DNA from: an uncultured Desulfobulbaceae bacterium
GTDB lineage: Bacteria > Desulfobacterota > Desulfobulbia > Desulfobulbales > BM004
Length of the DNA stretch: 14,596 nucleotides
Direction: 5' to 3'
Assembly: GCA_947258675.1 (NCBI GenBank)
Contig: CAMYJP010000088.1
Location: 1-14,596, forward strand
Within the stretch, counting starts at the first letter, position 1. Each line of letters opens with the position of its first letter. Below are positions 479 through 12,866 of the stretch, piece after piece. The notes under the pieces were generated by a model, which searched no databases, was not told the DNA's origin, and worked only from the letters and a program-made list of their open reading frames with translations. The position numbers were made by a program, and so were the translations under genes.

Positions 479-1048
479 ATGGCAGAGAGTATACATTGGG
501 AAAGTGAATTGGATACTGCCCTGGAAAGGGCAAAGAATGAAAACAAAACTATTCTTCTTGATTTCTTCAATCCCGGCTGAATCGGTTGCCAACAGATGGG
601 TACAGTTACGTACCCTGAACCGAAGGTCATAGAATATTTCGAAGCTAATTTGATTCCTTTGCAGGTTGCGTTTGATGACGAACCAATATCTAAAGATTTC
701 AACATCAAATGGACGCCGGCGTTAATCACCTTAGGACAGGATGGCAGAGAACATCACAGAACAATTGGATTTCTCGATCCACAAGGATTACTTGCCAGAC
801 TGCTGCTTGGTATTGGCAAATATCACTTTGATAATGATCGTTTTGTTGAAACGGCTTCAGTGCTTGGTACGATTATGAAAGAATATCCACAAAGTGATGC
901 TGTTCCTGAAGCAATTTTCATATCCGGAGTAACAGGATATAAAAGTTCAGGAAACCCCGGCCCCCTCAAAGAAGCCTATGAAAAGCTCAGTAGCAATTAT
1001 CCAGATAATGAATGGACAAAACGAGCATATCCCTATCGACTTTTATAA
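479..1048 (+). CDS. Selenocysteine-containing thioredoxin-fold protein with UxxC motif and TPR-like C-terminus
   Basis: Seen: from ATG 479 (strong GGAGG site) the frame runs 189 residues to TAA at 1046-1048, broken only by TGA at codon 34. Residues 28-37 read DFFNPG-U-IGC and align position by position with the thioredoxin active site (DFWAPWCGPC), so the TGA takes the place of the first, nucleophilic cysteine; Cys37 is the resolving one. Pro80 in KWTPALI fits the thioredoxin cis-proline. Residues 1 to about 100 are the thioredoxin fold; about 105-189 look helical and TPR-like (GKYHFDNDRFVETASVLGTI, then EAYEKLSSNYPDNEWTKRA). No signal peptide, so probably cytoplasmic. Known: cysteine forms of this layout (CIGCQQM) occur in related bacteria, from memory. 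Inferred: a thiol-disulfide or selenol redox enzyme of unknown substrate. A SECIS-like hairpin follows the TGA and a terminator closes the gene, so it appears monocistronic. A plain nonsense mutation is unlikely given the exact motif position and intact downstream frame. Confidence 0.87.
578..580 (+). other. In-frame UGA read as selenocysteine (codon 34)
   Basis: TGA lies 33 codons after the ATG at 479. It precedes ATC GGT TGC, giving U-I-G-C, the redox motif of a thioredoxin fold. It is the only stop in the frame before 1046. The selenocysteine machinery genes (selA, selB, selC, selD) are not in this window, so decoding capacity has to be shown elsewhere in the genome. Confidence 0.85.
581..622 (+). 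promoter_or_regulatory. Bacterial SECIS-like element
   Basis: Directly after the UGA the mRNA can fold into a two-part hairpin. The upper stem is GGGUAC (598-603) with GUACCC (610-615), 6 perfect pairs, closing a 6-nt loop AGUUAC (604-609). The lower stem is CGGUU (583-587) with AACCG (618-622), 5 perfect pairs. C593-G617 and A594-U616 can add two pairs between them, leaving GAU (595-597) bulged just under the upper stem. The loop carries GUU with G as its second base, 25 nt past the UGA. Known: bacterial SECIS elements that bind SelB sit inside the coding region just 3' of the UGA and need a short stem with G/U in the apical loop; this one fits in distance and shape. Confidence 0.82.
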
Positions 1049-2381: not shown

Positions 2382-2807
2382 TTAAATGACAACTTTTAAG
2401 GCGAACACAAAATTCGGAAAAAAAAGGGTAAAAATACGGGATTATTAACCGTATTGTAGCTGGAAAAGTCTAAGGTACCAGAAGTTGAGATTACTGGCTT
2501 GCTAAAAAAATGTCAGTATCTCTTGCCCAAAACCATGATTCCGTGACCTAATGATTCTTATCATGTGTATAATACTTTAGCTACATGATAATCAAAAGAG
2601 TGACAAACAGTTTTTTACATCCAAAATAACAAAATCAGATCAAGAATTTCAGTTCTCCAACCTGGCATTATTTTATCTGAATAATGTTGGTTATCTTTAC
2701 TTCATGTAAAAGATATATTTTCAACCTTCATAGTAGAAATTTTGATTCGAGAAAAAAAACAGAGCCGAAATCCTGGTTTTTTAAAAATGTTAATAATAGT
2801 TCTTCTA
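2382..2807. other. 426-base gene-free stretch between the PilZ gene and the cupin gene
   Basis: No credible coding frame was found. It is very AT-rich and holds several dyads. 2433-2439 with 2449-2455 (AATACGG with CCGTATT) is followed on the minus strand by T-runs and lies about 80 nt upstream of the PilZ start. 2558-2566 with 2583-2591 is listed separately. 2662-2672 with 2680-2690 is a G-U-rich stem that pairs only as plus-strand RNA. An imperfect stem spans about 2692-2715. On the minus strand, T-runs after the cupin stop (near 2751-2758) could serve as a weak terminator. None is proven. Confidence 0.5.
2558..2591 (+). promoter_or_regulatory. Perfect 9-bp inverted repeat flanking a TATAAT box
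   Basis: TTATCATGT (2558-2566) and ACATGATAA (2583-2591) are exact reverse complements. Between them TATAAT (2568-2573) is a perfect sigma-70 -10 hexamer in the plus orientation. The best -35 match (GTGACC, 2543-2548) is spaced 19 bp away, which is long. The right arm continues as ATGATAATCA, ten bases identical to the middle of the classical Fur box. It could be an operator-controlled promoter, but no plus-strand gene follows nearby; alternatively it is a chance dyad in AT-rich DNA. Confidence 0.35.
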
Positions 2808-3182
2808 TCACATTTTCTTCCATTCAATAACTAATACTTGTTGGTTTTCGGTTCCAATAACCTCTACAGCATGAGTTTTGCCTGGACTATAAAGTACCTG
2901 GTCTGCGGAGAACGATTTCTCAACAACCTTGCCTTCAGAGTTTGTGAGTTTCCCTTTCCATGGTGCGAAAAAATATGCGACATAAGCAGGATGAGTATGC
3001 ATAGGTACTTTTGTACCAGGAGGACGATTAGCTTTGGCCACTCGCACATCGTCATTTTCAAATAAAACCTTAACATCTCCTGATTCCGGCATAGCATCGG
3101 CCGCTAATGCCGTCCTCGCAGAAAAGACCAACAACAAGGCCACCATCAAAATATTCCCGGCAAGAAAAAATAAATTTTTCAT
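2808..3182 (-). CDS. Secreted (periplasmic) small cupin protein
   Basis: Seen: 124 residues. Residues 1-27 are a signal peptide (KN, then a hydrophobic run, then SARTALA-A with likely cleavage after Ala27). The mature part is a single cupin barrel: PPGTKVPMHTHPAYVAYFF gives His62 and His64 of cupin motif 1, and SPGKTHAVEVIGTEN gives His104 of motif 2. The usual glutamate of motif 1 is not obvious, so a three-His metal site is the safest reading. The start is secure: AAGGAGGG (3191-3198), spacer 8 nt. The gene stands alone, after a structured leader of about 200 nt with its own promoter. Known: cupins range from enzymes to metal or sugar binders, so the reaction cannot be named. Confidence 0.85.
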   Translation of the reverse strand: MKNLFFLAGNILMVALLLVFSARTALAADAMPESGDVKVLFENDDVRVAKANRPPGTKVPMHTHPAYVAYFFAPWKGKLTNSEGKVVEKSFSADQVLYSPGKTHAVEVIGTENQQVLVIEWKKM

Positions 3183-3236
3183 AATGTACTCCCTCCTTAT
3201 AAATATTTTTTGATAGTTTTCTGCTTAAATACTCGT

Positions 3237-3383
3237 GTGGCATCACGTCCTTTCATTTAAGGAGATAGCCACTAAAAAACACAAAAGCCTCCACCGAGGT
3301 CTTAGACCCCTTTGAAGGCTTATTAAAGTATTTTGCGCACCTCTTTCATGTGATCCCCCCCTAGGGAAAGAGGTAATGTCTAA
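3237..3383 (-). ncRNA. Structured leader RNA of the cupin gene (candidate riboswitch, attenuator or sRNA)
   Basis: Read as minus-strand RNA from a start predicted near 3383. Hairpin 1: ACCUCUUUC (3374-3366) pairs perfectly with GAAAGAGGU (3347-3339), closing an 18-nt G-rich loop. Hairpin 2: AAGCCU (3321-3316) with AGGCUU (3290-3285), holding an inner GGUC-UAA-GACC (3308-3298), followed by UUGUGUUUUUU. Hairpin 3: GUGGC (3272-3268) with GCCAC (3241-3237), and inside it UCCUU (3263-3259) with AAGGA (3252-3248). The AUCAC in the loop of hairpin 1 can pair with the GUGAU in the internal loop of hairpin 3. The 3' arm of hairpin 1 (GAGGU) can alternatively pair with ACCUC inside hairpin 2. The combination suggests cis-regulation; the class is not recognised. 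Confidence 0.55.
3274..3321 (-). terminator. Terminator-like hairpin inside the cupin leader
   Basis: On the minus strand the stem AAGCCU/AGGCUU (3321-3316 with 3290-3285), with an inner GGUC/GACC helix, is followed directly by UUGUGUUUUUU (ending at 3274). It lies between the predicted cupin promoter and the cupin start, so it would be an attenuator, or the 3' end of a small RNA of about 110 nt. It could also catch read-through from thiL. Confidence 0.5.
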
Positions 3384-3389
3384 ATGCAA

Positions 3390-3418
3390 AGTTTAATTAC
3401 GGCTTAACTAATGATCAA
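3390..3418 (-). promoter_or_regulatory. Predicted sigma-70 promoter for the cupin leader
   Basis: On the minus strand TTGATC (3418-3413) and TAAACT (3395-3390) are separated by exactly 17 bases; each matches four of six consensus positions. Transcription would start near 3383, a few bases before hairpin 1 of the leader, giving an untranslated leader of about 200 nt. This is a prediction from pattern alone. Confidence 0.4.
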
Positions 3419-3522
3419 GTGCCACAAAGTGAAAATGTGTATGATTTATTACGTAGGGGTTGCCACCATCTGAACTCGCTAACAACGGTTTATCGTTCAA
3501 GATGTAATTTGGTTATGCAAAG

Positions 3523-4557
3523 TTAAGAAAATTCTGAAAAATGATCATATCCCTGGAAACCAATTTCAATTATCTGTCCATCGGAATGAGAAAGGTATAC
3601 GCCTGAACGTTGACTCATTCGCCCGATACAGAAAATTTCACGCCCGGCCTTATCTTTAACCAAGTTGTAGACCTTGTCTCTATCGTCAGGAGATGAAGTG
3701 AAAAGCAATTGATAATCCTCACCGCCCTTTAAGGCCAGATCCAGAGCTGACAAATTTAAATGGTCCGCTGCTTCGCGCATTAATGGAGAAAGGGGCAATT
3801 CATCAGCTTGGATTTCAGCCCCGATTCCACTTTCAGTGCAAATGTGGGCAAGATCAGTAGCTAATCCATCAGAGAGATCCACCATTGAATGAACAATTTG
3901 GTTTTCCGCCAACAACTCTCCAATTTCAACCTGTGGCTCCGGATTAGTATGAGCTAATAACAATTGCTGGAATTTATCCTCTTCAACTATGGGTAATTTC
4001 TCATGAATTCTTTTATAAATCTCCAACCCTGCTGCGGCATCACCAATACAGCCACTCACCCAAATCAAATCGCCAGGTTTTGCACCTGAACGATACACAA
4101 TCAGATCTTCTTCTCCCTCACCAATGATCGTAATTGAGAAAACTGCATCTTTTCGAACTTTAACAGTATCCCCACCTATCAATATTACGCCATGCTCTTT
4201 CAGAACCCCGGTAAAACCTTTAATAAAATCAGAGAACCAGGGTTCACCTGGATCTGGTATGCCAGCAGAAAACAAGGCAAACCGTGGCCGTCCACCCATT
4301 GCTGCAATATCACTGATGTTAGTAGAAGCGGCCTTACGCCCTAAATAATAAGGAGCATGCCATTCAAGATTAAAATGAATTGTCTCAACCAATGTATCGG
4401 TGGTAACTAAGAATACCTTACCGCTGGTTCCTCGCACTACTGCACAGTCATCGCCAATCCCCATTAAAACGTCATTATTACTGGTACCGGCCAATCCCTT
4501 TATCTGTTCGATTAATTCCCTTTCTGAAAATTTATTTTTTGGGTTGCCGCTTTTCAA
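3523..4557 (-). CDS. thiL: Thiamine-phosphate kinase
   Basis: ThiL phosphorylates thiamine monophosphate with ATP to give thiamine diphosphate, the last step of cofactor synthesis, in the cytoplasm. Seen: 344 residues, slightly over the usual 320-330. Hallmarks in order: GIGDDCAVV (residues 33-41, Mg/ATP-binding aspartates), TTDTLVETIHF, NISDIAAMGGRP, GGDTVK, DLSDGLATDL and GGEDYQLLF. All are typical of the ThiL/PurM-like AIR synthase superfamily. The start is TTG (4555-4557); no ATG is available before the GDD motif, and the 12 codons upstream lead back to the stop of the preceding gene with no better start. No good ribosome site is seen, so coupling to the gene 36 bases upstream is likely. 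It is the last gene of the minus-strand cluster beginning with the methyltransferase. Confidence 0.95.
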   Translation of the reverse strand: MKSGNPKNKFSERELIEQIKGLAGTSNNDVLMGIGDDCAVVRGTSGKVFLVTTDTLVETIHFNLEWHAPYYLGRKAASTNISDIAAMGGRPRFALFSAGIPDPGEPWFSDFIKGFTGVLKEHGVILIGGDTVKVRKDAVFSITIIGEGEEDLIVYRSGAKPGDLIWVSGCIGDAAAGLEIYKRIHEKLPIVEEDKFQQLLLAHTNPEPQVEIGELLAENQIVHSMVDLSDGLATDLAHICTESGIGAEIQADELPLSPLMREAADHLNLSALDLALKGGEDYQLLFTSSPDDRDKVYNLVKDKAGREIFCIGRMSQRSGVYLSHSDGQIIEIGFQGYDHFSEFS

Positions 4558-4593
4558 AATATAATTAGACCAATTCCTTGCAAAAAATTTAGA

Positions 4594-4956
4594 TTATTTT
4601 ACCAGGCGCAATACAGCCTTTTTCCTTTTCTTCTTATCTACGCTGCTTTTTTTAGGGGCATCGCCGTTGAAATCAACGGCTTTCACAAAACGCTTTTCAC
4701 CACCCATACTAAATATTTCCATACCGGTCATTTGCGGAGTTCTTAAAATCCAGGTGAGGCTTTGAATCGGTACAGTAAGTACCTGCATGGTGACATGCCA
4801 CCATTCATCTTGTTTGGTCTCGTCTCGTTTTATATTCTCAACAAGGGCGTAAACCAGCATCTGGGGTTTCTTGGCTGCAATAAGGACAATATCCCCAATA
4901 ATAGTTGTATCCTTGAATTTTATTACACCTTTAAGTTCTTCAACCAACTTTTCCAT
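4594..4956 (-). CDS. Conserved-looking small protein of unknown function upstream of thiL
   Basis: Seen: 120 residues from ATG 4956. The body (residues about 1-95, e.g. VEELKGVIKFKDTTIIGDIV, then WWHVTMQVLTVPIQSLTWIL) alternates hydrophobic and polar residues as in a compact alpha/beta domain; two adjacent Trp and a segment MTGMEIFSMGGEKRFVKAV stand out. The C-terminal tail is strongly basic (KKSSVDKKKRKK), which could contact RNA, DNA or the membrane surface. No signal peptide or transmembrane helix. It ends 36 bases before thiL on the same strand and frame, so they are probably cotranscribed. The family was not recognised and no function is claimed; a role in thiamine metabolism would be guessing from position only. 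Confidence 0.75.
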   Translation of the reverse strand: MEKLVEELKGVIKFKDTTIIGDIVLIAAKKPQMLVYALVENIKRDETKQDEWWHVTMQVLTVPIQSLTWILRTPQMTGMEIFSMGGEKRFVKAVDFNGDAPKKSSVDKKKRKKAVLRLVK

Positions 4957-5058
4957 TCCAGGTTACTCAGCAATATTTAAGCTTTTACTTCACTAGTTTT
5001 ATACAATGAAATATATGAGAATAGATAGTTGTCCCTCTAGTGGTGACACTTGTCTGCT

Positions 5059-5078
5059 GTCCGGCAGTTAAACCGGAC
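5059..5078. repeat. Inverted repeat at the 3' end of comM
   Basis: GTCCGG (5059-5064) and CCGGAC (5073-5078) form a 6-bp GC-rich stem with an 8-nt loop that contains the comM stop codon. No T-run follows on the minus strand, so it is not a canonical intrinsic terminator; it may slow or process the transcript between comM and the small gene downstream. Confidence 0.3.
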
Positions 5079-6597
5079 GATCAAATCTCCTATATTGAAT
5101 AGCCTCGGCAACATGTCCTGCTCTGAGTTCATCTATTGCTGCGAGATCTGCTATCGTGCGGGCCAACTTAAGAATACGATGGTATGAACGGGCTGAAAGA
5201 CCCAGCCTGTCGACAGCCTCTTCAAGTAGTTCCTTTGAGGGCTTATCCAGTTTACAAAATTTTTTCAGTTCATTTGGCCCCATCTGGCCATTGCAGTAAA
5301 CTCCATTTCGCTTCAAGTATCTATCCTTCTGAATATTTCTTGCACTGTTAACCCTGCCCTTAATTTCGTTGGAAGATTCCCCACATCTTTCATCTGTCAT
5401 TTCTTTAAATTTTACAGATGGCACGTCAAGATGGAGATCAATCCTGTCCAAAAGCGGGCCAGATAGTCTGTTTTCATAACGTCTTATCTGTAGTGGTGAG
5501 CAAGTACAGTTATGTTTCAGATCTCCAAAATATCCGCAAGGGCATGGATTCAATGCAGCTATAAGAACAAATCTTGCCGGAAATGATAAAGAATGGGCAG
5601 CCCGGGAGATTGTTACCGCGCCATCTTCCAGTGGTTGACGTAACACCTCAAGAACATTCTTTTTAAATTCAGGAGACTCATCGAGGAAAAGGACTCCGTT
5701 ATGAGCAAGAGAGACTTCACCAGGTCTGGGCATTTGACCACCGCCGATCAGACCTGCATCTGATATAGTATGATGCGGTGCCCTGAATGGCCTGGTTGCA
5801 AGCAGCGGTTTGTTCTTTGGCAGTAAACCCATAACGCTGTAAATTTTGGTAGTTTCAAGTGCTTCCTCAAAAGTAAGATCTGGCAGTATAGTGGGTATTC
5901 GGCGCGCCAACATCGTCTTCCCAGAACCTGGCGGACCTTTCATGAGCACATTGTGCCCCCCTGCGGCGGCAATTTCCAAAGCTCTTTTTACATGTTCCTG
6001 TCCTTTGACTTCGTTGAAATCATTTTGATAATGAGTTTCTTTTTGAAAAATAGCTTTTACATCAATATCTGTCGAGGTCAATTCCGACTTGCCTGCAAGT
6101 ATTTCAACGGCATGATGCAGCGCATCAATGCCTATTACATTAATTCCCGAAACTACCGCCGCCTCAGAGGCATTTACTGATGGCACCAGCACACCATCCA
6201 ATCCGGCTTTTTGAGCCGATAATGCAACGGGCAAAACACCTCTCGCAGACCGGGCTCCACCATCTAAAGAAAGCTCACCTACTACTGCATAACGGTCAAG
6301 AATCTCACTTTTAAAAACACCGGCAGCAGCAAGAATTCCGAGAGCCATAGGCAGATCATACCCCGCACCTTCTTTTTTCACATCAGCAGGCGCAAGGTTG
6401 ACAGTAATTTTACGATTAGGAAACTCATAACCGCAATTCTTAATGGCCGCTTTCACCCTGTCTTTACTTTCACGAACTGCACCTTCAGGTAAACCCACGG
6501 TTGAAAATGATGGTAAACCATACGCTATATCCACTTCAACTTCGACCAGTAGTCCATCTACCCCAATAACCGCCCCACTCAGGACCTTTGCCAGCAT
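5068..6597 (-). CDS. comM: ComM/YifB family Mg-chelatase-like AAA+ ATPase
   Basis: Known: ComM is a hexameric AAA+ helicase that promotes branch migration and integration of DNA taken up by natural transformation; homologues are common also in bacteria not known to be competent. Seen: 509 residues, the normal length. An N-terminal Lon-protease-like/ChlI domain (residues about 1-190, GLPSFSTVGLPEGAVRESKD, AGYDLPMALGILAA) precedes the AAA+ core with Walker A GPPGSGKT (221-228) and Walker B GVLFLDE. A Cys-rich insert N350-PCPCGYFGD..CTC (Cys 352, 354, 364, 366) matches the family's likely zinc knuckle. The C-terminal Mg_chelatase_C helix bundle ends with GLSARSYHRILKLARTIADL. The start at 6597 (MLAKVLSGAVIG) has a GGGGGGAG site; a longer frame to 6645 adds 16 residues unlike the family. 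Second gene of the minus-strand cluster. Confidence 0.95.
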   Translation of the reverse strand: MLAKVLSGAVIGVDGLLVEVEVDIAYGLPSFSTVGLPEGAVRESKDRVKAAIKNCGYEFPNRKITVNLAPADVKKEGAGYDLPMALGILAAAGVFKSEILDRYAVVGELSLDGGARSARGVLPVALSAQKAGLDGVLVPSVNASEAAVVSGINVIGIDALHHAVEILAGKSELTSTDIDVKAIFQKETHYQNDFNEVKGQEHVKRALEIAAAGGHNVLMKGPPGSGKTMLARRIPTILPDLTFEEALETTKIYSVMGLLPKNKPLLATRPFRAPHHTISDAGLIGGGQMPRPGEVSLAHNGVLFLDESPEFKKNVLEVLRQPLEDGAVTISRAAHSLSFPARFVLIAALNPCPCGYFGDLKHNCTCSPLQIRRYENRLSGPLLDRIDLHLDVPSVKFKEMTDERCGESSNEIKGRVNSARNIQKDRYLKRNGVYCNGQMGPNELKKFCKLDKPSKELLEEAVDRLGLSARSYHRILKLARTIADLAAIDELRAGHVAEAIQYRRFDRPV

Positions 6598-6656
6598 TCT
6601 CCCCCCTATTCTTAGTATTGAATTGAATCCCCAAACCCCTTGCAATATAAATCTTT

Positions 6657-7403
6657 CTAGGGCTTATAACACCGTGCCATTTCTTCTGAATAATCTCCGC
6701 CAGCTTTTTTGTATACAAAAAAAGGTGGAAGTATTTTAACCTCCCCTCCTCCCTTTATTGCTTCAACAAGTACAAATTTAGCATCACTTCCTGGGTAACT
6801 GTATACAATCTGCTGTCTTTTTGGTTCCAACCCCCTGTTTTTCATCTCAGTGACAAGTGAAGCTGCCCTGGTTGAAGGATAAATCATTGTTACTTTTCCC
6901 CTGGTTCTTACAGCAAAAGCTGCGGCTCGCATTATTTCCGGCAATCCAGCCCCTATTTCATGCCGAGCTATAGCCTGTTCCGATGCCGGATTTACTTTAC
7001 CTGTACCAGTTTTCCTGTATGGGGGATTGCTGACGATCCAATCGTTAGACCCAGCCTGAATAAAGTTCTCTATTGAACAAAGATCTCCTTTTATAACATG
7101 GATCCTCCGACTGCTAATCCAATCTGTGCCATTGTTTATCTCAATATTCCTTTTTGCCAGAACAGCCAGTTCTGCTTGAAGTTCAAGGGAAGTTAGCTGT
7201 AATTCGGAATGGCGGTAGGCCAGTATGAGTGAAACTATTCCGCACCCTCCGCCGAGATCGAGGATCCTATCTGATTTTTTTGGAGATACGAAGTTGGCAA
7301 GAAGGACGGCATCAAGGGAAAATCGATAGCCATAACGATGCTGCAAACATTTCAATCTGCCATCAAATAATGTATCTTCTGTGAATAATCGGCTGGGTGA
7401 CAT
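6657..7403 (-). CDS. tRNA1(Val) (adenine(37)-N6)-methyltransferase-like protein
   Basis: Seen: 248 residues of a class I Rossmann methyltransferase. Motif I is DLGGGCGIVSL, which binds S-adenosylmethionine; SLELQAELAVLAKRNIEIN follows as motif II; the catalytic NPPY motif (SNPPYRKTGTGKVNP) marks an N6-adenine or glutamine N-methylase. The N-terminal TLFDGRLKCLQHRYGYRFSLDAVLLANFV closely follows the TrmN6/YfiC pattern (the Q-x-x-x-G-Y-R-F-S-x-D element). Known: TrmN6 methylates A37 of tRNA1(Val). Inferred: the same or a related RNA target, in the cytoplasm. The gene begins the minus-strand cluster, 59 bases before comM. The start ATG (7401-7403) has only a poor ribosome site. Other NPPY methylases such as PrmC or RlmF are less likely because of the N-terminal pattern. 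Confidence 0.88.
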   Translation of the reverse strand: MSPSRLFTEDTLFDGRLKCLQHRYGYRFSLDAVLLANFVSPKKSDRILDLGGGCGIVSLILAYRHSELQLTSLELQAELAVLAKRNIEINNGTDWISSRRIHVIKGDLCSIENFIQAGSNDWIVSNPPYRKTGTGKVNPASEQAIARHEIGAGLPEIMRAAAFAVRTRGKVTMIYPSTRAASLVTEMKNRGLEPKRQQIVYSYPGSDAKFVLVEAIKGGGEVKILPPFFVYKKAGGDYSEEMARCYKP

Positions 7404-7832
7404 TATCTAATATATACTCGCACATCAAATGTTTTTAGCCTATAAAATTTAAGACCAACAGGGCAAAAACAGTATATCTAATTGATTTAATGTTATTATG
7501 GAAAACCATTTAAAACCGCAGCTTTCTTCAATCAGAGTCAAACCATGGTTCAATGGGGCTCGTTTTCGCTTAAAAAATGGACATCAAAGTAAATATCATG
7601 TAAATATTTTTCATCAAAAAACCGAGTTTCGAAATGCGTATCTGAAAAATCTTATTCATTTGATTGGGTATTACCGATAAACAGAACCGGATTGAATAAT
7701 AAGCAAGAGTAAAAACAGGAATTTATTGAGACCCGTATTATAGCATATCGAGAATATATATATTTCTGAATAGGTAGTATACATTTAGAAATATTTCCTA
7801 TTAGCAGCGGTTGGAGCTTCCCGACATTTTCA
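7404..7832. other. 429-base AT-rich divergent intergenic region
   Basis: It separates the minus-strand methyltransferase cluster from the plus-strand DUF4390-kinase genes, so promoters for both must lie here. A 60-codon plus-strand frame at 7498-7680 has no ribosome site and no recognisable motif and is not called. An AT-only near-palindrome (about 7752-7768, AGAATATATATATTTCT) is present. No confident -35/-10 pair, terminator or RNA gene was seen. Confidence 0.5.
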
Positions 7833-8432
7833 ATGCGATTACAAATACTACCAAAAATATGCACTTCCAAGTGTAATATAGGCTTGAGCCTGCTGTTGCT
7901 GTTTTTTTGCCTTGAATACTCAAATCCCTGCAAAGCACATGCTCAACCTGCAACAATAGACGATTATTTTGTTATTAATTCAGATACTCACTTGTTGCTC
8001 TATCTTAAAACATTGAATTGTTTTACAAAAGAAATGGAAACCGGTATCCAAAATGGAATACCTGCAACATTCACTTACTTCGTGGATCTTTACCAAGTAA
8101 GAAAAAATTGGCCAGATAAAAAGTTGGTTTCGCATACTTTTCATCGTACCTTGGCCTACGACACGCTTAAAGAAGAATACAGTATCGCTTTTTCAGAGTC
8201 AGAAAAAAAAATCACTACCTCTCTATTGGCAGATGCAAAAGAATATATGTCTGAAATACATGATTTTAAAATAACAACAACTGACCGTTTATCTGAAGAA
8301 GGTTTATTTGTTCTCAAAGTAAAAGCAAAACTGGCACGCAAGACGCTGCCATTATATTTCCACTATCTGATTCCTTTCTCATCACTATGGGATTTTGAAA
8401 CAAGCTGGTATTCGCTGCAATTCAGATACTGA
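7833..8432 (+). CDS. DUF4390 family protein, exported
   Basis: Seen: 199 residues. An N-terminal hydrophobic segment (residues about 16-28, IGLSLLLLFFCLE) followed by NPCKAHAQPA reads as a signal peptide or anchor with cleavage near AHA-QP. The mature part (DDYFVINSDTHLLLYLKTLNCFTKEME, GIPATFTYFVDLYQVRKNW, YDTLKEEYSI, and a C-terminal SLWDFETSWYSLQFRY) matches my memory of the DUF4390 pattern, including the W-x-T-x-W-Y end. Known: DUF4390 genes often lie directly before NtrY-like kinases, as here (118 bases upstream). Inferred: an extracytoplasmic partner or sensor accessory of the kinase; no reaction is known. The start ATG has GGAG about 17 bases upstream, which is too far to be ideal. Confidence 0.8.
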   Translation: MRLQILPKICTSKCNIGLSLLLLFFCLEYSNPCKAHAQPATIDDYFVINSDTHLLLYLKTLNCFTKEMETGIQNGIPATFTYFVDLYQVRKNWPDKKLVSHTFHRTLAYDTLKEEYSIAFSESEKKITTSLLADAKEYMSEIHDFKITTTDRLSEEGLFVLKVKAKLARKTLPLYFHYLIPFSSLWDFETSWYSLQFRY

Positions 8433-8550
8433 TAAACAAAAGTTACATTGCAGACTATTTTTTTGCTAAAACAAATACACACTCAGTAAGTGAAATTTTC
8501 CAAAATAAAAAATTTCTCAAGCCGTCATTTTATCCGGAGTTCAAACAATA

Positions 8551-10770
8551 TTGATTATGACCAAGAAAGATGTAAATAAAGAAAAGCGTTTTCGGATCAT
8601 AATCTTAATTTGTCTTCTTCTTATACCTCTACTTACTTTCTTTGAAACCAAAGTTTTATTAATTGATGAAGTAAGCTTTCCTATCAGCGGTAATGTTCTG
8701 GTCTTTGTGCTTATTAACATCAACGTCTTGCTTCTTTTGTTAATGGTTTTCCTGGTTCTTAGAAGACTAGTTGAACTTGTATTTGAACGTCGTAAACAGA
8801 TTCTTGGCACAAAACTTCGAACAAAACTTGTAATATCTTTTGTTTCTCTCTCTCTTATACCAACCGCTCTCCTATTTTTTATAGCTTTACAATTTATTTC
8901 CACGAGTATGGACTACTGGTTCAACTCTACGGTAGATCAATCCCTCCAGGAATCTCTAAATATTGCGAAAAATATCTATCAAAAGGCTCGTGATCAGGTA
9001 AAAAATCAAGCTGAAAGCATAAGCATCCAGCTTTACTTTGGTAATTATGATGAATCGAAAACCAAAGATATTGACGCTTTTTTAAACAACACCCTAACAG
9101 CGCAAGGCCTCGAAAGTCTTGAACTTATTTCTGACCAAAGAAAATCCATTGTCAAGGTTGTCGGCAAGAATATAAAAAAAGAGTCTTTGCCTGAAATCCC
9201 AGCTGAACTTATTCGCATTGCTCTGGAGGATGATGATCATCAAATAACCATTCAGTCGATACCAGAGGGAGAACTTGTCCGAGGGGTTAAACAGATCTCG
9301 CTTGGTCCCCCGAACAATAGAAATACCCATCATCTGTTGATTACCTCTATGCTCATTACTAAAAACGAACTGAATCGTCTGGAAATCATTTCAAAAGGGC
9401 TAGAAGGGTATAGACAACTCATGCTTCTCAAAAATCCCATCAAAACAAGCCTATTGGTAATGCTTCTGATTGTTACTCTGCTCATAGTTTTCTGCGCTAT
9501 ATGGTTCGGTTTTTATGTTGCCCAGGGCCTTACCGGACCAATTGGTAAACTTGCTGATGCAACCAGACGGGTGGCAGATGGAGAACTCGACTTTGCTCTA
9601 GAAAAAGATGCAGATGATGAAATGGGACTGTTAGTGGATTCTTTTAATAAAATGACTCGAGATCTCCTGAACAGTAAACAAGAACTCGAACGTGCCTATT
9701 TAGCACTTAAAGACAGTAATATAGAACTTGACGAACGAAGACGGTATATAGAAATTATTCTTCAAAATGTGCCTGCAGGTGTAATTTCTTTTGATGAAAA
9801 TAAACAAATTACAACAATTAATCATTTTGCTGAAGAACTCCTCAAAATAGACAAAGAAAATTTTCTATATAAGGATTACAGGGAGACTTTAATCCCTTAT
9901 CACCTCCAAATACTGGAAAGTCTTCTTGATGAACTTTCTGAATCCGGTCAATCTTCGATTCAGCGGCCACTCCAGCTGACGGTAAGGAATGAAACATTTT
10001 CATTGCTGGTGAACTATACAAAATTGGAAGATGAACAGGAAAATCCTATTGGTGGAGTTCTCGTCTTTGATAACCTTACTCAGCTTGAGAAAGCCCAACG
10101 GGCAGCTGCCTGGAGAGAAGTTGCCAAAAGAATTGCCCATGAAGTAAAAAACCCTCTGACTCCTATACAGCTTTCTGCTCAGCGATTACGCAAAAGATAT
10201 CTGGATTTGCTTGGGAAACAAGGCGACGTTTTCGATTTATGCACCAACACAATCATTAACCAGGTTGATGAATTAAAAAGATTGGTAAGTGAATTTTCTG
10301 CTTTTGCCAGGATGCCCGCAGTACAGAAAACAATGAGCGACCTGGAAGACATGATCAATGAAGTTCTGGTATTATATATTGAGGCTCATAAGAACGTACA
10401 ATTCTTATTTTCAATACCCCAGGAAATTCCTATCTTTAATTTTGATCGAAAGCAGCTGAAACGTGTCATGATCAATCTACTGGATAATGCTGTGGCAGTG
10501 CTACCCGAGGGTGGTACAATCGAAATTGTCCTGAAATTAAACGAAGACAAAAACAGGGTCTTTATAGAAGTGAGTGATAATGGGCCTGGTGTTAGTGATA
10601 AAGACAAGTTTCATCTTTTTGAACCCTATTTTTCAACAAAAAAATCAGGCACCGGTTTAGGATTGACAATCGCAAGCACTATTACGGCCGATCATGATGG
10701 TTATATAAGAGTTATGGACAATGTACCCAACGGTGCTGTATTCATCATCGAATTACCCTTGCAGATATAA
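8551..10770 (+). CDS. NtrY-like membrane sensor histidine kinase
   Basis: Seen: 739 residues. Three hydrophobic helices near the N-terminus (about 10-32, 47-70, 92-116), an extracytoplasmic region (about 117-295), and a fourth helix (about 299-325) give the NtrY layout. Then come HAMP (about 325-380, LTGPIGKLADATRRVADGEL), a short coiled coil, PAS (about 398-510, IILQNVPAGVISFDENKQIT), HisKA with phospho-acceptor His530 in RIAHEVKNPLTP, and HATPase with DNAVAVL, DNGPGVSD, FEPYFSTKKSGTGLGL. All catalytic boxes are intact. Known: NtrY-type kinases phosphorylate NtrC/NtrX-type sigma-54 activators. Oddity: no response regulator gene follows; the next 344 bases are non-coding. The start is either TTG 8551 (CGGAG 12 bases before) or ATG 8557. 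It probably forms an operon with the DUF4390 gene upstream. Confidence 0.92.
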   Translation: MIMTKKDVNKEKRFRIIILICLLLIPLLTFFETKVLLIDEVSFPISGNVLVFVLININVLLLLLMVFLVLRRLVELVFERRKQILGTKLRTKLVISFVSLSLIPTALLFFIALQFISTSMDYWFNSTVDQSLQESLNIAKNIYQKARDQVKNQAESISIQLYFGNYDESKTKDIDAFLNNTLTAQGLESLELISDQRKSIVKVVGKNIKKESLPEIPAELIRIALEDDDHQITIQSIPEGELVRGVKQISLGPPNNRNTHHLLITSMLITKNELNRLEIISKGLEGYRQLMLLKNPIKTSLLVMLLIVTLLIVFCAIWFGFYVAQGLTGPIGKLADATRRVADGELDFALEKDADDEMGLLVDSFNKMTRDLLNSKQELERAYLALKDSNIELDERRRYIEIILQNVPAGVISFDENKQITTINHFAEELLKIDKENFLYKDYRETLIPYHLQILESLLDELSESGQSSIQRPLQLTVRNETFSLLVNYTKLEDEQENPIGGVLVFDNLTQLEKAQRAAAWREVAKRIAHEVKNPLTPIQLSAQRLRKRYLDLLGKQGDVFDLCTNTIINQVDELKRLVSEFSAFARMPAVQKTMSDLEDMINEVLVLYIEAHKNVQFLFSIPQEIPIFNFDRKQLKRVMINLLDNAVAVLPEGGTIEIVLKLNEDKNRVFIEVSDNGPGVSDKDKFHLFEPYFSTKKSGTGLGLTIASTITADHDGYIRVMDNVPNGAVFIIELPLQI

Positions 10771-11114: not shown

Positions 11115-12866
11115 ATGAGCGAAGACACGACACACGGGGTGCCAACCCAGAAAGACATTGAAAAAGATATAAGCGAATATCTTACAAAAAAATATGGCGA
11201 GCGGATCAAAATTATTGGAATTCATGCCCAAGCTGATTCCTCAAGGAAAAAGTCTGCGCTCGCTGAAAAAAAAATTCCCAATGAATATAATTTTGATCTC
11301 AAACCTGAAGAGCTATATGCCTATCTAGACGAATACGTGGTCCGGCAGGATGAAGCAAAGGCTGTTCTTTCTACCAAAATATGCACTCACTTCAATCGAA
11401 TCAAACATGCGTTAAAAAACCCGAAACAATCTCGGCAGGCTGTAGGCCAGATAAAAAGTAATGTGTTGCTTATCGGACCTACCGGAGTGGGTAAAACGTA
11501 CCTCGTAAAACTTATTGCACAGAAGTTAGGAGTTCCTTTTGTCAAAGGTGATGCTACAAAATTCAGCGAAACAGGCTATGTTGGTGCAGATGTAGATGAT
11601 CTTGTTCGTGATTTGGTCCGCGAAGCTGACGACGACATTGAACGTGCTCAGTATGGAATTATTTATGTCGATGAAATTGACAAAATCGCATCAAGTCCCA
11701 ATCGCATAGGACCAGATGTTTCCCGTTCCGGAGTCCAGAGAGCTCTTCTTAAACCTATGGAAGAAACCGAGATTGACTTAAAAGTGCCGCATGATCCAAT
11801 TTCACAAATGGAGGCAATCGAACAATACAGGTCAACCGGTAAACGAAAGCGAAAGATAATTAACACAAAAAATATCCTTTTCATCATGAGTGGGGCATTC
11901 AATGAACTGGAAGAGATAATTATCAAGAGAATTAAAACACAAGCTATAGGCTTTGAGAGTACTATTCATTCCAAAAGTGATGGTTTTCAATATCTCAAGC
12001 GAATAAAAGCGGAAGATCTTATTCAATATGGATTTGAATCAGAATTTATTGGCAGATTACCGGTTATTGCCTGTCTCGATCGACTTACAGTAAAAGATTT
12101 ATATGAAATTCTAGTTAATTTTAACTGTTCCGTAATTGTAGGTAAGAAATTAGACTTTCAGTCCTACAAAATTCATATACAATTTGAAGAGAAAGCTTTG
12201 CTGGAAATTGCCAAACGCGCAAACGAGGAGCAAACCGGTGCCAGAGGGCTTGTAAGTGTAATAGAAAAGACCTTACTTCCTTTTGAAAAAAAACTTCCAT
12301 CAACCGATATTCGATATCTTGCTGTTACTAAAAAACTGGTTCTCGATCCTGAAGATGAACTCAAAATACTTCTAAGTGACAATTCAAGAAAGAAATTACA
12401 TGAAAAACAATATGAACTTTTAGCCAGCAAAGAGAGAGAAAGGATTATTCAATTCCTGCAAGAAAACAAGAAAGATTTTTTCAAGTCTCACAAAATCAAC
12501 CTTACGAAAATGCGCGCAGAATTAATAGCTTTGCAGTGCCAGCAGAAAATTTCTGATATCGGCGAGACCCTTGAACTGTTTGTAGAACATATAATGCTGA
12601 TTAACCAATGCGCACGATCTATTTCTGAAAAATGTGAATTAGAAATTTCCTTCAGTGATGAAGCTGTTGATTGGATACTTGCAAAGCAGCCTTTTTCTGA
12701 AGAATCAATCAAATCATCTTGTCTAAACCTTTTGAAGACTTTTGAATATGGTTTTGGCCTTCTTAAGCAAAAAAAAGATATCAAAAACATTGTTATTCCA
12801 GTCAATGGCTTGCAATCACCAGAGAAGTATATTAACGAGTTAGTTTCAGATAGCTTTAAAGAATAA
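11115..12866 (+). CDS. Divergent ClpX-like AAA+ unfoldase with extra C-terminal region
   Basis: Seen: 583 residues against about 420 for ClpX. The first roughly 65 residues lack the C4 zinc-binding domain; similarity begins at LKPEELYAYLDEYVVRQDEAK. Walker A GPTGVGKT (121-128), pore-1 GYVGADVDDL, Walker B IIYVDEIDKI with D186-E187, the arginine finger in SEFIGRLPV and sensor-2 GARGL are intact. The RKH loop is replaced by KRKRK (243-247). IGF (278-280), the ClpP-docking tripeptide, is kept in a loop otherwise unlike ClpX. From about residue 420 there is a helical, probably coiled-coil extension, then a segment (about 510-583, CELEISFSDEAVDWIL and so on) that parallels the ClpX small domain (YKIHIQFEEKALLEIA) as a degenerate second copy. 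Inferred: an ATP-driven unfoldase, perhaps ClpP-linked, with altered substrate choice. No ribosome site precedes ATG 11115. hemB starts 106 bases after the stop. Confidence 0.85.
   Translation: MSEDTTHGVPTQKDIEKDISEYLTKKYGERIKIIGIHAQADSSRKKSALAEKKIPNEYNFDLKPEELYAYLDEYVVRQDEAKAVLSTKICTHFNRIKHALKNPKQSRQAVGQIKSNVLLIGPTGVGKTYLVKLIAQKLGVPFVKGDATKFSETGYVGADVDDLVRDLVREADDDIERAQYGIIYVDEIDKIASSPNRIGPDVSRSGVQRALLKPMEETEIDLKVPHDPISQMEAIEQYRSTGKRKRKIINTKNILFIMSGAFNELEEIIIKRIKTQAIGFESTIHSKSDGFQYLKRIKAEDLIQYGFESEFIGRLPVIACLDRLTVKDLYEILVNFNCSVIVGKKLDFQSYKIHIQFEEKALLEIAKRANEEQTGARGLVSVIEKTLLPFEKKLPSTDIRYLAVTKKLVLDPEDELKILLSDNSRKKLHEKQYELLASKERERIIQFLQENKKDFFKSHKINLTKMRAELIALQCQQKISDIGETLELFVEHIMLINQCARSISEKCELEISFSDEAVDWILAKQPFSEESIKSSCLNLLKTFEYGFGLLKQKKDIKNIVIPVNGLQSPEKYINELVSDSFKE

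Follow-up and report, generated by a model that had tools for sequence, protein, structure and literature searches.

A seemingly stop-broken gene of an uncultured Desulfobulbaceae bacterium very probably encodes a selenium-containing thioredoxin-like enzyme

An in-frame TGA at the active site of a thioredoxin-like gene

In a 14,596-nt contig of an uncultured Desulfobulbaceae bacterium (CAMYJP010000088.1 of assembly GCA_947258675.1; “the window” denotes this whole stretch of DNA), a gene at positions 479–1048 of the forward strand that seems to be broken by a stop codon very probably encodes a selenium-containing thioredoxin-like enzyme, as judged from comparison with its relatives. All features of the gene described below lie on the same strand. 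The gene comprises 33 codons, a TGA at 578–580, 155 sense codons and a TAA stop at 1046–1048, and yields a product of 189 residues, to which relatives align over the full length, when the TGA is read as selenocysteine (Sec). Translation put this single in-frame TGA at residue 34 of the motif DFFNPG-U-IGC, in the first position of a UxxC pair whose resolving cysteine, Cys37, is encoded by TGC at 587–589, and confirmed the frame, the motif and the intact downstream codons as the original prediction from the sequence had placed them. No other TGA in the window was flanked by at least 30 in-frame codons upstream and at least 150 downstream, and such a flanked TGA was absent from 200 first-order Markov sequences of the window’s length. 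The predicted strong ribosome-binding site was also present, as a GGAGG at 467–471, 7 bases 5′ of the ATG at 479.

A protein search returned 589 homologues at E ≤ 0.001, of which 120 were listed, including the window’s own database entry (P0002), a 150-residue protein starting at 596. This entry has exactly the form expected from conventional annotation, in which the active site is lost. Among the 120 listed homologues, 97 (150–155 residues, P0002 included) started after the Sec position, 95 of them at the internal ATG (596–598, Met40), which is the standard gene-calling start, and 2 just past the Sec position; some source names label these shortened homologues tetratricopeptide repeat (TPR) proteins. 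The remaining 23 were full length and carried W at residue 34 in 14 cases, C in 8 and S in 1.

The codon for residue 34 is TGA or cysteine in 151 distinct genes

Genome DNA was scanned with patterns lying outside the active site, and the best 80 of at least 141 confirmed relatives were kept. By their titles, these 80 belonged to Desulfobacterota, Nitrospirota and Planctomycetota (Brocadia and its kin), together with some metagenome-assembled genomes labelled otherwise, and in all of them the residue-34 codon was TGA. Three taxonomic groups were then covered at greater depth. The phylum of genome G003 (395 genomes) gave 91 matches at E ≤ 8e-21, most of them full length, of which 80 had one TGA (75 genomes) and 11 were stop-free (9 genomes); weaker matches, mostly to the thioredoxin or the TPR part alone, were left out, and one of these, in G267, appeared to belong to the family but to have a disrupted frame. 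In the family of G030 (Geomobilimonas luticola, the source of locus L078), which we take to be Geobacteraceae, 48 genomes gave 40 strong matches, 20 with TGA (19 genomes) and 20 stop-free (20 genomes), with matches weaker than 4.6e-48 left out. Of the 58 genomes in the class to which the Brocadia genome G025 belongs, 23 gave matches, 37 in all: 35 had one TGA, 1 had TGA plus TAA and 1 was free of stops. The gene is common in all three groups. Three genomes of the last class (G027, G505 and G515) each held three TGA copies, one 53–57% and two 32–35% identical to the window’s. Among viral contigs, 23 stretches fitted the pattern and none encoded a relative; plasmids gave only 5 weak matches, at 51–58% query coverage.

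Pooling gave 153 distinct genes, from which matches under about 120 aligned residues had been left out: 122 with TGA, 22 with TGC, 7 with TGT, and 2 that were dropped (L114 and L116, where the alignment misplaced the codon). TAA, TAG or TGG occurred in none of the 151 retained genes, so that the homologues with Sec or Cys at residue 34 that the original prediction had looked for amounted to 122 and 29 distinct genes, respectively. Cys37 was kept in all 122 TGA genes and in all 20 close Cys genes. The 29 codons 5′ of the TGA were stop-free in 122 of 122 TGA genes, while the other two frames contained stops in 53 and 93 of them, and variation in this region was highest at the third codon position. 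Because the TGA genes show no stops and a codon-like pattern of variation there, coding 5′ of the TGA is real on this comparative evidence.

A SECIS-type hairpin follows the TGA

Bacterial selenocysteine insertion sequence (SECIS) elements are, as a rule, stem-loops that lie a short distance 3′ of the UGA and carry a G near the start of the loop. The window has such a hairpin at 598–615, with arms GGGTAC (598–603) and GTACCC (610–615) around the loop AGTTAC (604–609), forming a stem of six pairs between bases 20–25 and 32–37 (counting the T of the TGA as 0) and presenting a loop G at 605, 24 bases 3′ of the UGA. The hairpin had been proposed from the letters alone, and conservation of its stem bears it out: in 113 distinct TGA sequences, pairing held in 669 of 678 cells, and 108 of the sequences had all six pairs. 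Sliding the stem partner by 1–3 bases left a pairing of 0.22 to 0.63, and shuffling gave a mean of 644 paired cells and never reached 669 in 2000 trials.

The stem also varied on both sides at once in ways that change the encoded amino acids, as GAT/TAT (87), GGT/TAC (9, the window included), GAA/TTT (4) and GGA/TTC (2). The window’s five nearest rows on the tree have GAT/TAT, from which its own GGT/TAC differs on both sides of one pair. The Thr codon at residue 44 was ACG in 92 of 92 cases versus 191 of 879 among later Thr codons of these genes. The stem was lost in the Cys genes: in the close Cys relatives (n = 20), 62 of 120 cells were paired, with no sequence having all six pairs and one having five, and in the distant Cys relatives (n = 9) the count was 22 of 54. 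Rfam models gave no match in the window at their gathering thresholds.

Selenocysteine machinery in genomes of relatives

The machinery was surveyed in 30 genomes that carry the TGA gene, chosen from those that gave the best 80 loci. We found selA in 29 and selD in 28 of them, each selD with a TGA of its own; selB exceeded the cut-off in 27, and a clear tRNA-Sec (≥67 bits) was present in 22. The tRNA-Sec gathering score was reached in 25, the extra ones lying near 47–50 bits, where they may be other tRNAs. Three relatives have gene order in common with the window: G003 and G012 had selA, selB, selD and tRNA-Sec, and G004 had selA, selB and selD with no clear tRNA-Sec. In a second set, 17 of the 18 genomes carrying the TGA gene had selB, as did 5 of the 9 whose genes are distant and stop-free and 11 of the 13 without a match; in Geobacteraceae the counts for selB were 20 of 20 among Cys genomes, 16 of 19 among TGA genomes and 7 of 9 among the others.

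Several observations weigh against reading the gene as a selenoprotein. The survey of the machinery covered genomes of relatives, and for the source genome selB and selC are presumed. A clear tRNA-Sec was missing from 8 of the 30 chosen genomes, and of the three without selB over the cut-off, two held selB-like fragments. The presence of selB was rejected as discriminating evidence: it accompanies the gene but discriminates little, because 11 of the 13 relatives sampled without the gene also have it. Locus L170 carries selB, a GTPase gene (HflX-like by eye), a DUF4390-type gene and ntrY in one run (2648–9116). At 6657–10770 of the window, DUF4390–ntrY is preceded instead by two genes of the opposite strand, trmN6 and comM, with no selB at that place, so that in the source genome selB is elsewhere or absent. 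The folding energy of the hairpin did not stand out: its z was −0.98, with 28 of 200 shuffles at least as stable, and −1.24, with 25 of 200, in a second run. It was rejected as weak evidence, and since it is not significant by itself, the evidence for the hairpin is comparative. Five of the 113 TGA sequences had at least one broken pair. Cys forms are perhaps under-sampled among the best 80 of the at least 141 relatives. Residue 37 is Ser in six of the 9 distant Cys genes, two of the 122 TGA genes (L126 and L128) have an extra TAG about 125 codons further on, and the full-length database match P0010 has Ser at residue 34. The tree of the 151 genes, on which the Sec/Cys label needs 4 changes as compared with a shuffled mean of 26.8, was made by a quick method and has long branches flagged. 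Finally, no family-wide conserved neighbour was found around the 151 genes, many of whose loci have short flanks in which neighbours could be missed, and conserved neighbours were rejected as a guide to function.

A thioredoxin fold with a short helical tail

The thioredoxin-like domain (PF13098; residues 18–108, positions 530–802) scored 33.9 bits in the 479–1048 product, over the cut-off of 27. PF13899 and PF03190 likewise exceeded their cut-offs, and all Pfam matches were of thioredoxin type; no NCBIfam model reached its cut-off. An AlphaFold2 model of the product (predicted local distance difference test score, pLDDT, 96.4) consisted of a thioredoxin domain followed by a helical tail of about two TPR repeats (residues 101–188, positions 779–1042), with five or six helices in about 88 residues; residues 105–189 were modelled with a pLDDT of 93.4. 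Comparison with the Protein Data Bank (PDB) placed the C-terminal (gamma) domain of DsbD and DsbH among the nearest folds, and BamD, YbgF and other TPRs nearest to the tail. As modelled, the product combines a thioredoxin fold resembling those of DsbD-gamma and DsbH with a short TPR tail. The TPR-like tail of the original prediction stood for the family, in which TPR_6 matched 29 of 31 members of set A1 at E 0.01, in addition to the model and its fold neighbours; the window’s protein by itself matched no TPR model. No signal peptide was seen by eye, and by its sequence the product would be cytosolic.

DsbD and DsbH, which are also among the Pfam/NCBIfam neighbours, act in the envelope, and DsbD joins a membrane domain to two envelope domains. 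The window’s product differs from both in being a free protein of 189 residues with no membrane domain, with Sec and with a TPR tail. The VPGUxxT thioredoxin-like (seleno)proteins (type 2, NF041383) and TsoB (NF045694) showed weak similarity in the thioredoxin part (31.8 and 37.3 bits), far under their cut-offs of 275 and 805 bits, and have another motif and another architecture.

Probable counterparts appear in selenoprotein surveys. Two of these (PMC13188914, PMC9312934) list a predicted selenoprotein group, “Thiol:disulfide interchange protein”, with PF13098, UxxC and the representative WP_011366075.1; PMC1794560 places the same PF13098 UxxC group in Syntrophus aciditrophicus, Geobacter metallireducens and “G. 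uraniumreducens”, and PMC2398784 gives 22 “Trx-like 2 (thiol disulfide interchange protein)” sequences from ocean data. As described there, the group shares with our family the Pfam domain over the cut-off, the UxxC motif and kin of the same organisms. Subfamilies in PMC9312934 are defined by domain and by Sec site or motif, and because of this rule the family would fall in the PF13098 UxxC group. Judged by these descriptions, the family is probably this listed group. The main texts of PMC13188914 and PMC9312934 contain neither “TPR” nor “tetratricopeptide”. A literature search of titles and abstract starts found none describing a UxxC–TPR selenoprotein, and we do not claim that the family is unpublished. 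The view that fusing a UxxC thioredoxin fold to a TPR-like tail is unusual has to be tempered: the gene is common in the sampled groups, thioredoxin–TPR fusions such as CnoX are known, and a PF13098 UxxC group was already listed.

Proposed mechanism and alternative functions

With high confidence, we read the gene as that of a selenoprotein with the following mode of action. At the UGA (578–580), SelB and tRNA-Sec would insert selenocysteine under the guidance of the 598–615 hairpin. Sec34 and Cys37 would form the UxxC redox pair of the DsbD-gamma/DsbH-like domain. Reduced Sec34 is expected to attack a disulfide of a client (or another oxidised thiol), presumably with catalysis running in this direction, and Cys37 would resolve the client intermediate, giving a selenenylsulfide. 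The short TPR tail may keep the client or a partner beside the active site. Recharging would most likely proceed by general thiol-reducing routes, through a thioredoxin-reductase-like flavoprotein or a ferredoxin:thioredoxin reductase (FTR).

An alternative that is unlikely but retains some weight is that the selenoprotein acts mainly as a small CnoX-like chaperedoxin, whose TPR tail would bind unfolded clients while the UxxC protects or repairs thiols. Like the window’s product, CnoX/YbbN has an N-terminal thioredoxin fold and a C-terminal TPR part, and PMC8129009 describes a Caulobacter form with CXXC and with oxidoreductase and holdase activities; the absence of a visible signal peptide also fits. 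The window’s protein differs in having Sec for Cys and a much shorter tail, nearer to the TPRs of BamD and YbgF. That tail, of roughly 88 residues and five or six helices, differs from the two five-helix subdomains described for the TPR part of E. coli CnoX. CnoX (3QOU) was missing both from the 25 matched PDB sequences and from the fold-comparison rows shown, which is no proof of difference.

Rather improbable, in our estimate, is a dedicated reductase of peroxide or of selenium/sulfur species served by FTR or a flavoprotein. A reductase-type gene adjoins the family gene in 10 of 151 cases, but these come largely from few clades and the counts stand without a background rate, a point that also tells against the recharging routes proposed above. 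Seven of the ten are thioredoxin-reductase-like flavoproteins, adjoining in L023, L036, L039, L046, L051 and L064 (PF07992, 92.5 bits in L036; CVDCDGY motif in L023, L036 and L064) and, as a longer thioredoxin-reductase-like fusion, in L020. The other three are FTR beta subunits (L011, L016 and L025; PF02943, 72.6 bits in L011), and in L011 and L025 a glutaredoxin gene lies between the two (PF00462, 47.6 bits in L011). No peroxiredoxin model was among the Pfam matches. These reductase neighbours at most hint at the electron donor.

Alternative readings of the TGA

That the TGA is an ordinary stop, with the functional protein starting at ATG 596 and the upstream frame a relic, is very improbable. 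The 596–1048 frame is open by itself and most listed database matches begin at Met40, but this later start, which had been named as grounds for refutation, exists only in annotation. Of the 122 TGA genes, 94 have an ATG at the upstream position, and a Shine–Dalgarno-like motif precedes it in 87 of these 94, while none of the same 94 has one 5′ of the internal ATG. The upstream DNA is open and varies like codons in the relatives, translation from 596 would lose both residue 34 and Cys37, which all 122 TGA genes keep, and the Cys relatives read straight through.

Decoding of the TGA as tryptophan (genetic code 4) is still harder to credit. It would account for the W at residue 34 in 14 of the 23 full-length matches among the 120 listed, but all 14 came from clusters whose longest contig was 682–1486 bases, and gene callers may choose code 4 on contigs this short. 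TGG occurs in none of the 151 genes, Cys is the replacement, a SECIS stem and, in relatives, selA, selB and selD are present, and both these genes and the window also use TGA for termination. Because of the short-contig origin of all 14 and the lack of TGG, the W has most likely arisen in gene calling. In such entries from contigs under 1.5 kb (e.g., P0003, P0013 and P0021), a Trp in place of Sec, probably due to code-4 calling, could serve as a quick finder of hidden selenoproteins.

A pseudogene or sequencing error, which one in-frame stop in one gene would fit, carries next to no weight given the TGA at the same codon in all of the best 80 of at least 141 relatives, the lack of TAA, TAG and TGG there in 151 genes, and stem changes on both sides.

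Gene neighbourhood and other observations

A terminator-like structure was seen by eye downstream of the gene at 1056–1106, where an inverted repeat (1056–1071 with 1085–1100) is followed by TGTTTT. The gene order FKBP, selenoprotein gene, thiL, an open reading frame, comM is common to the window, L004 and L012, both of which also have trmN6, and in part to L003. The window’s NtrY-like kinase is 60–63% identical to relatives, many of them labelled Desulfobulbales or Desulfobulbaceae, and its hemB is 78–84% identical in three of those relatives; the window thus probably belongs in or near Desulfobulbales. At 11115–12866 the window encodes a 583-residue ClpX/HslU-like AAA protein (AAA_2, ClpB_D2-small) followed by hemB, as do three relatives. 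A phospholipase-D-like gene (named by eye) lies 3′ of the family gene in 32 of 151 cases, in Geobacteraceae, which we read as mere synteny.

Other TGA-containing genes came up alongside the family. Weak Geobacteraceae matches with one TGA were rejected as a second selenoprotein for L177, L178, L180 and L186, whose motif is CIPC. Three further thioredoxin-like genes (L181 in G264, L182 in G014 and L183 in G169) have TGA first in UxxC, an N-terminal signal-like stretch and no TPR tail, and two short ones (L184 in G379 and L185 in G361) have TGA first in UxxC with neither; L181 and L185, compared with NCBIfam, reached no cut-off. Genome G450 carries the family gene with TGA, and the other thioredoxin-like match examined in it has CIPC. 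Six of 16 genomes (G450, G422, G464, G452, G451 and G463) gave matches to proline-reductase-PrdB-like genes that contain an in-frame TGA, none of which reached the family cut-off.

Implications

What looked like a doubtful read-through is, after comparison across relatives, firmly placed as a selenoprotein. The family is often shortened in databases with loss of the active site, the Sec position being absent from the 97 short entries among the 120 listed. More tentatively, and as a possibility short of an expectation, Sec may be the usual form of a large family of client-docking cytosolic thioredoxins (“selenochaperedoxins”), guided by TPRs and fed by FTR or a flavoprotein. Such a family would span groups of sulfate and iron reducers, reach up to three copies in anammox kin, have residues 41 and 45 dictated by the hairpin and, in Geobacteraceae, partly carry Cys without the hairpin. 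On this reading the Geobacteraceae would offer a natural paired experiment. Their split, with TGA in 19 and Cys in 20 of 48 genomes and selB present in all 20 Cys genomes, makes the benefit of Sec over Cys testable on close orthologues.
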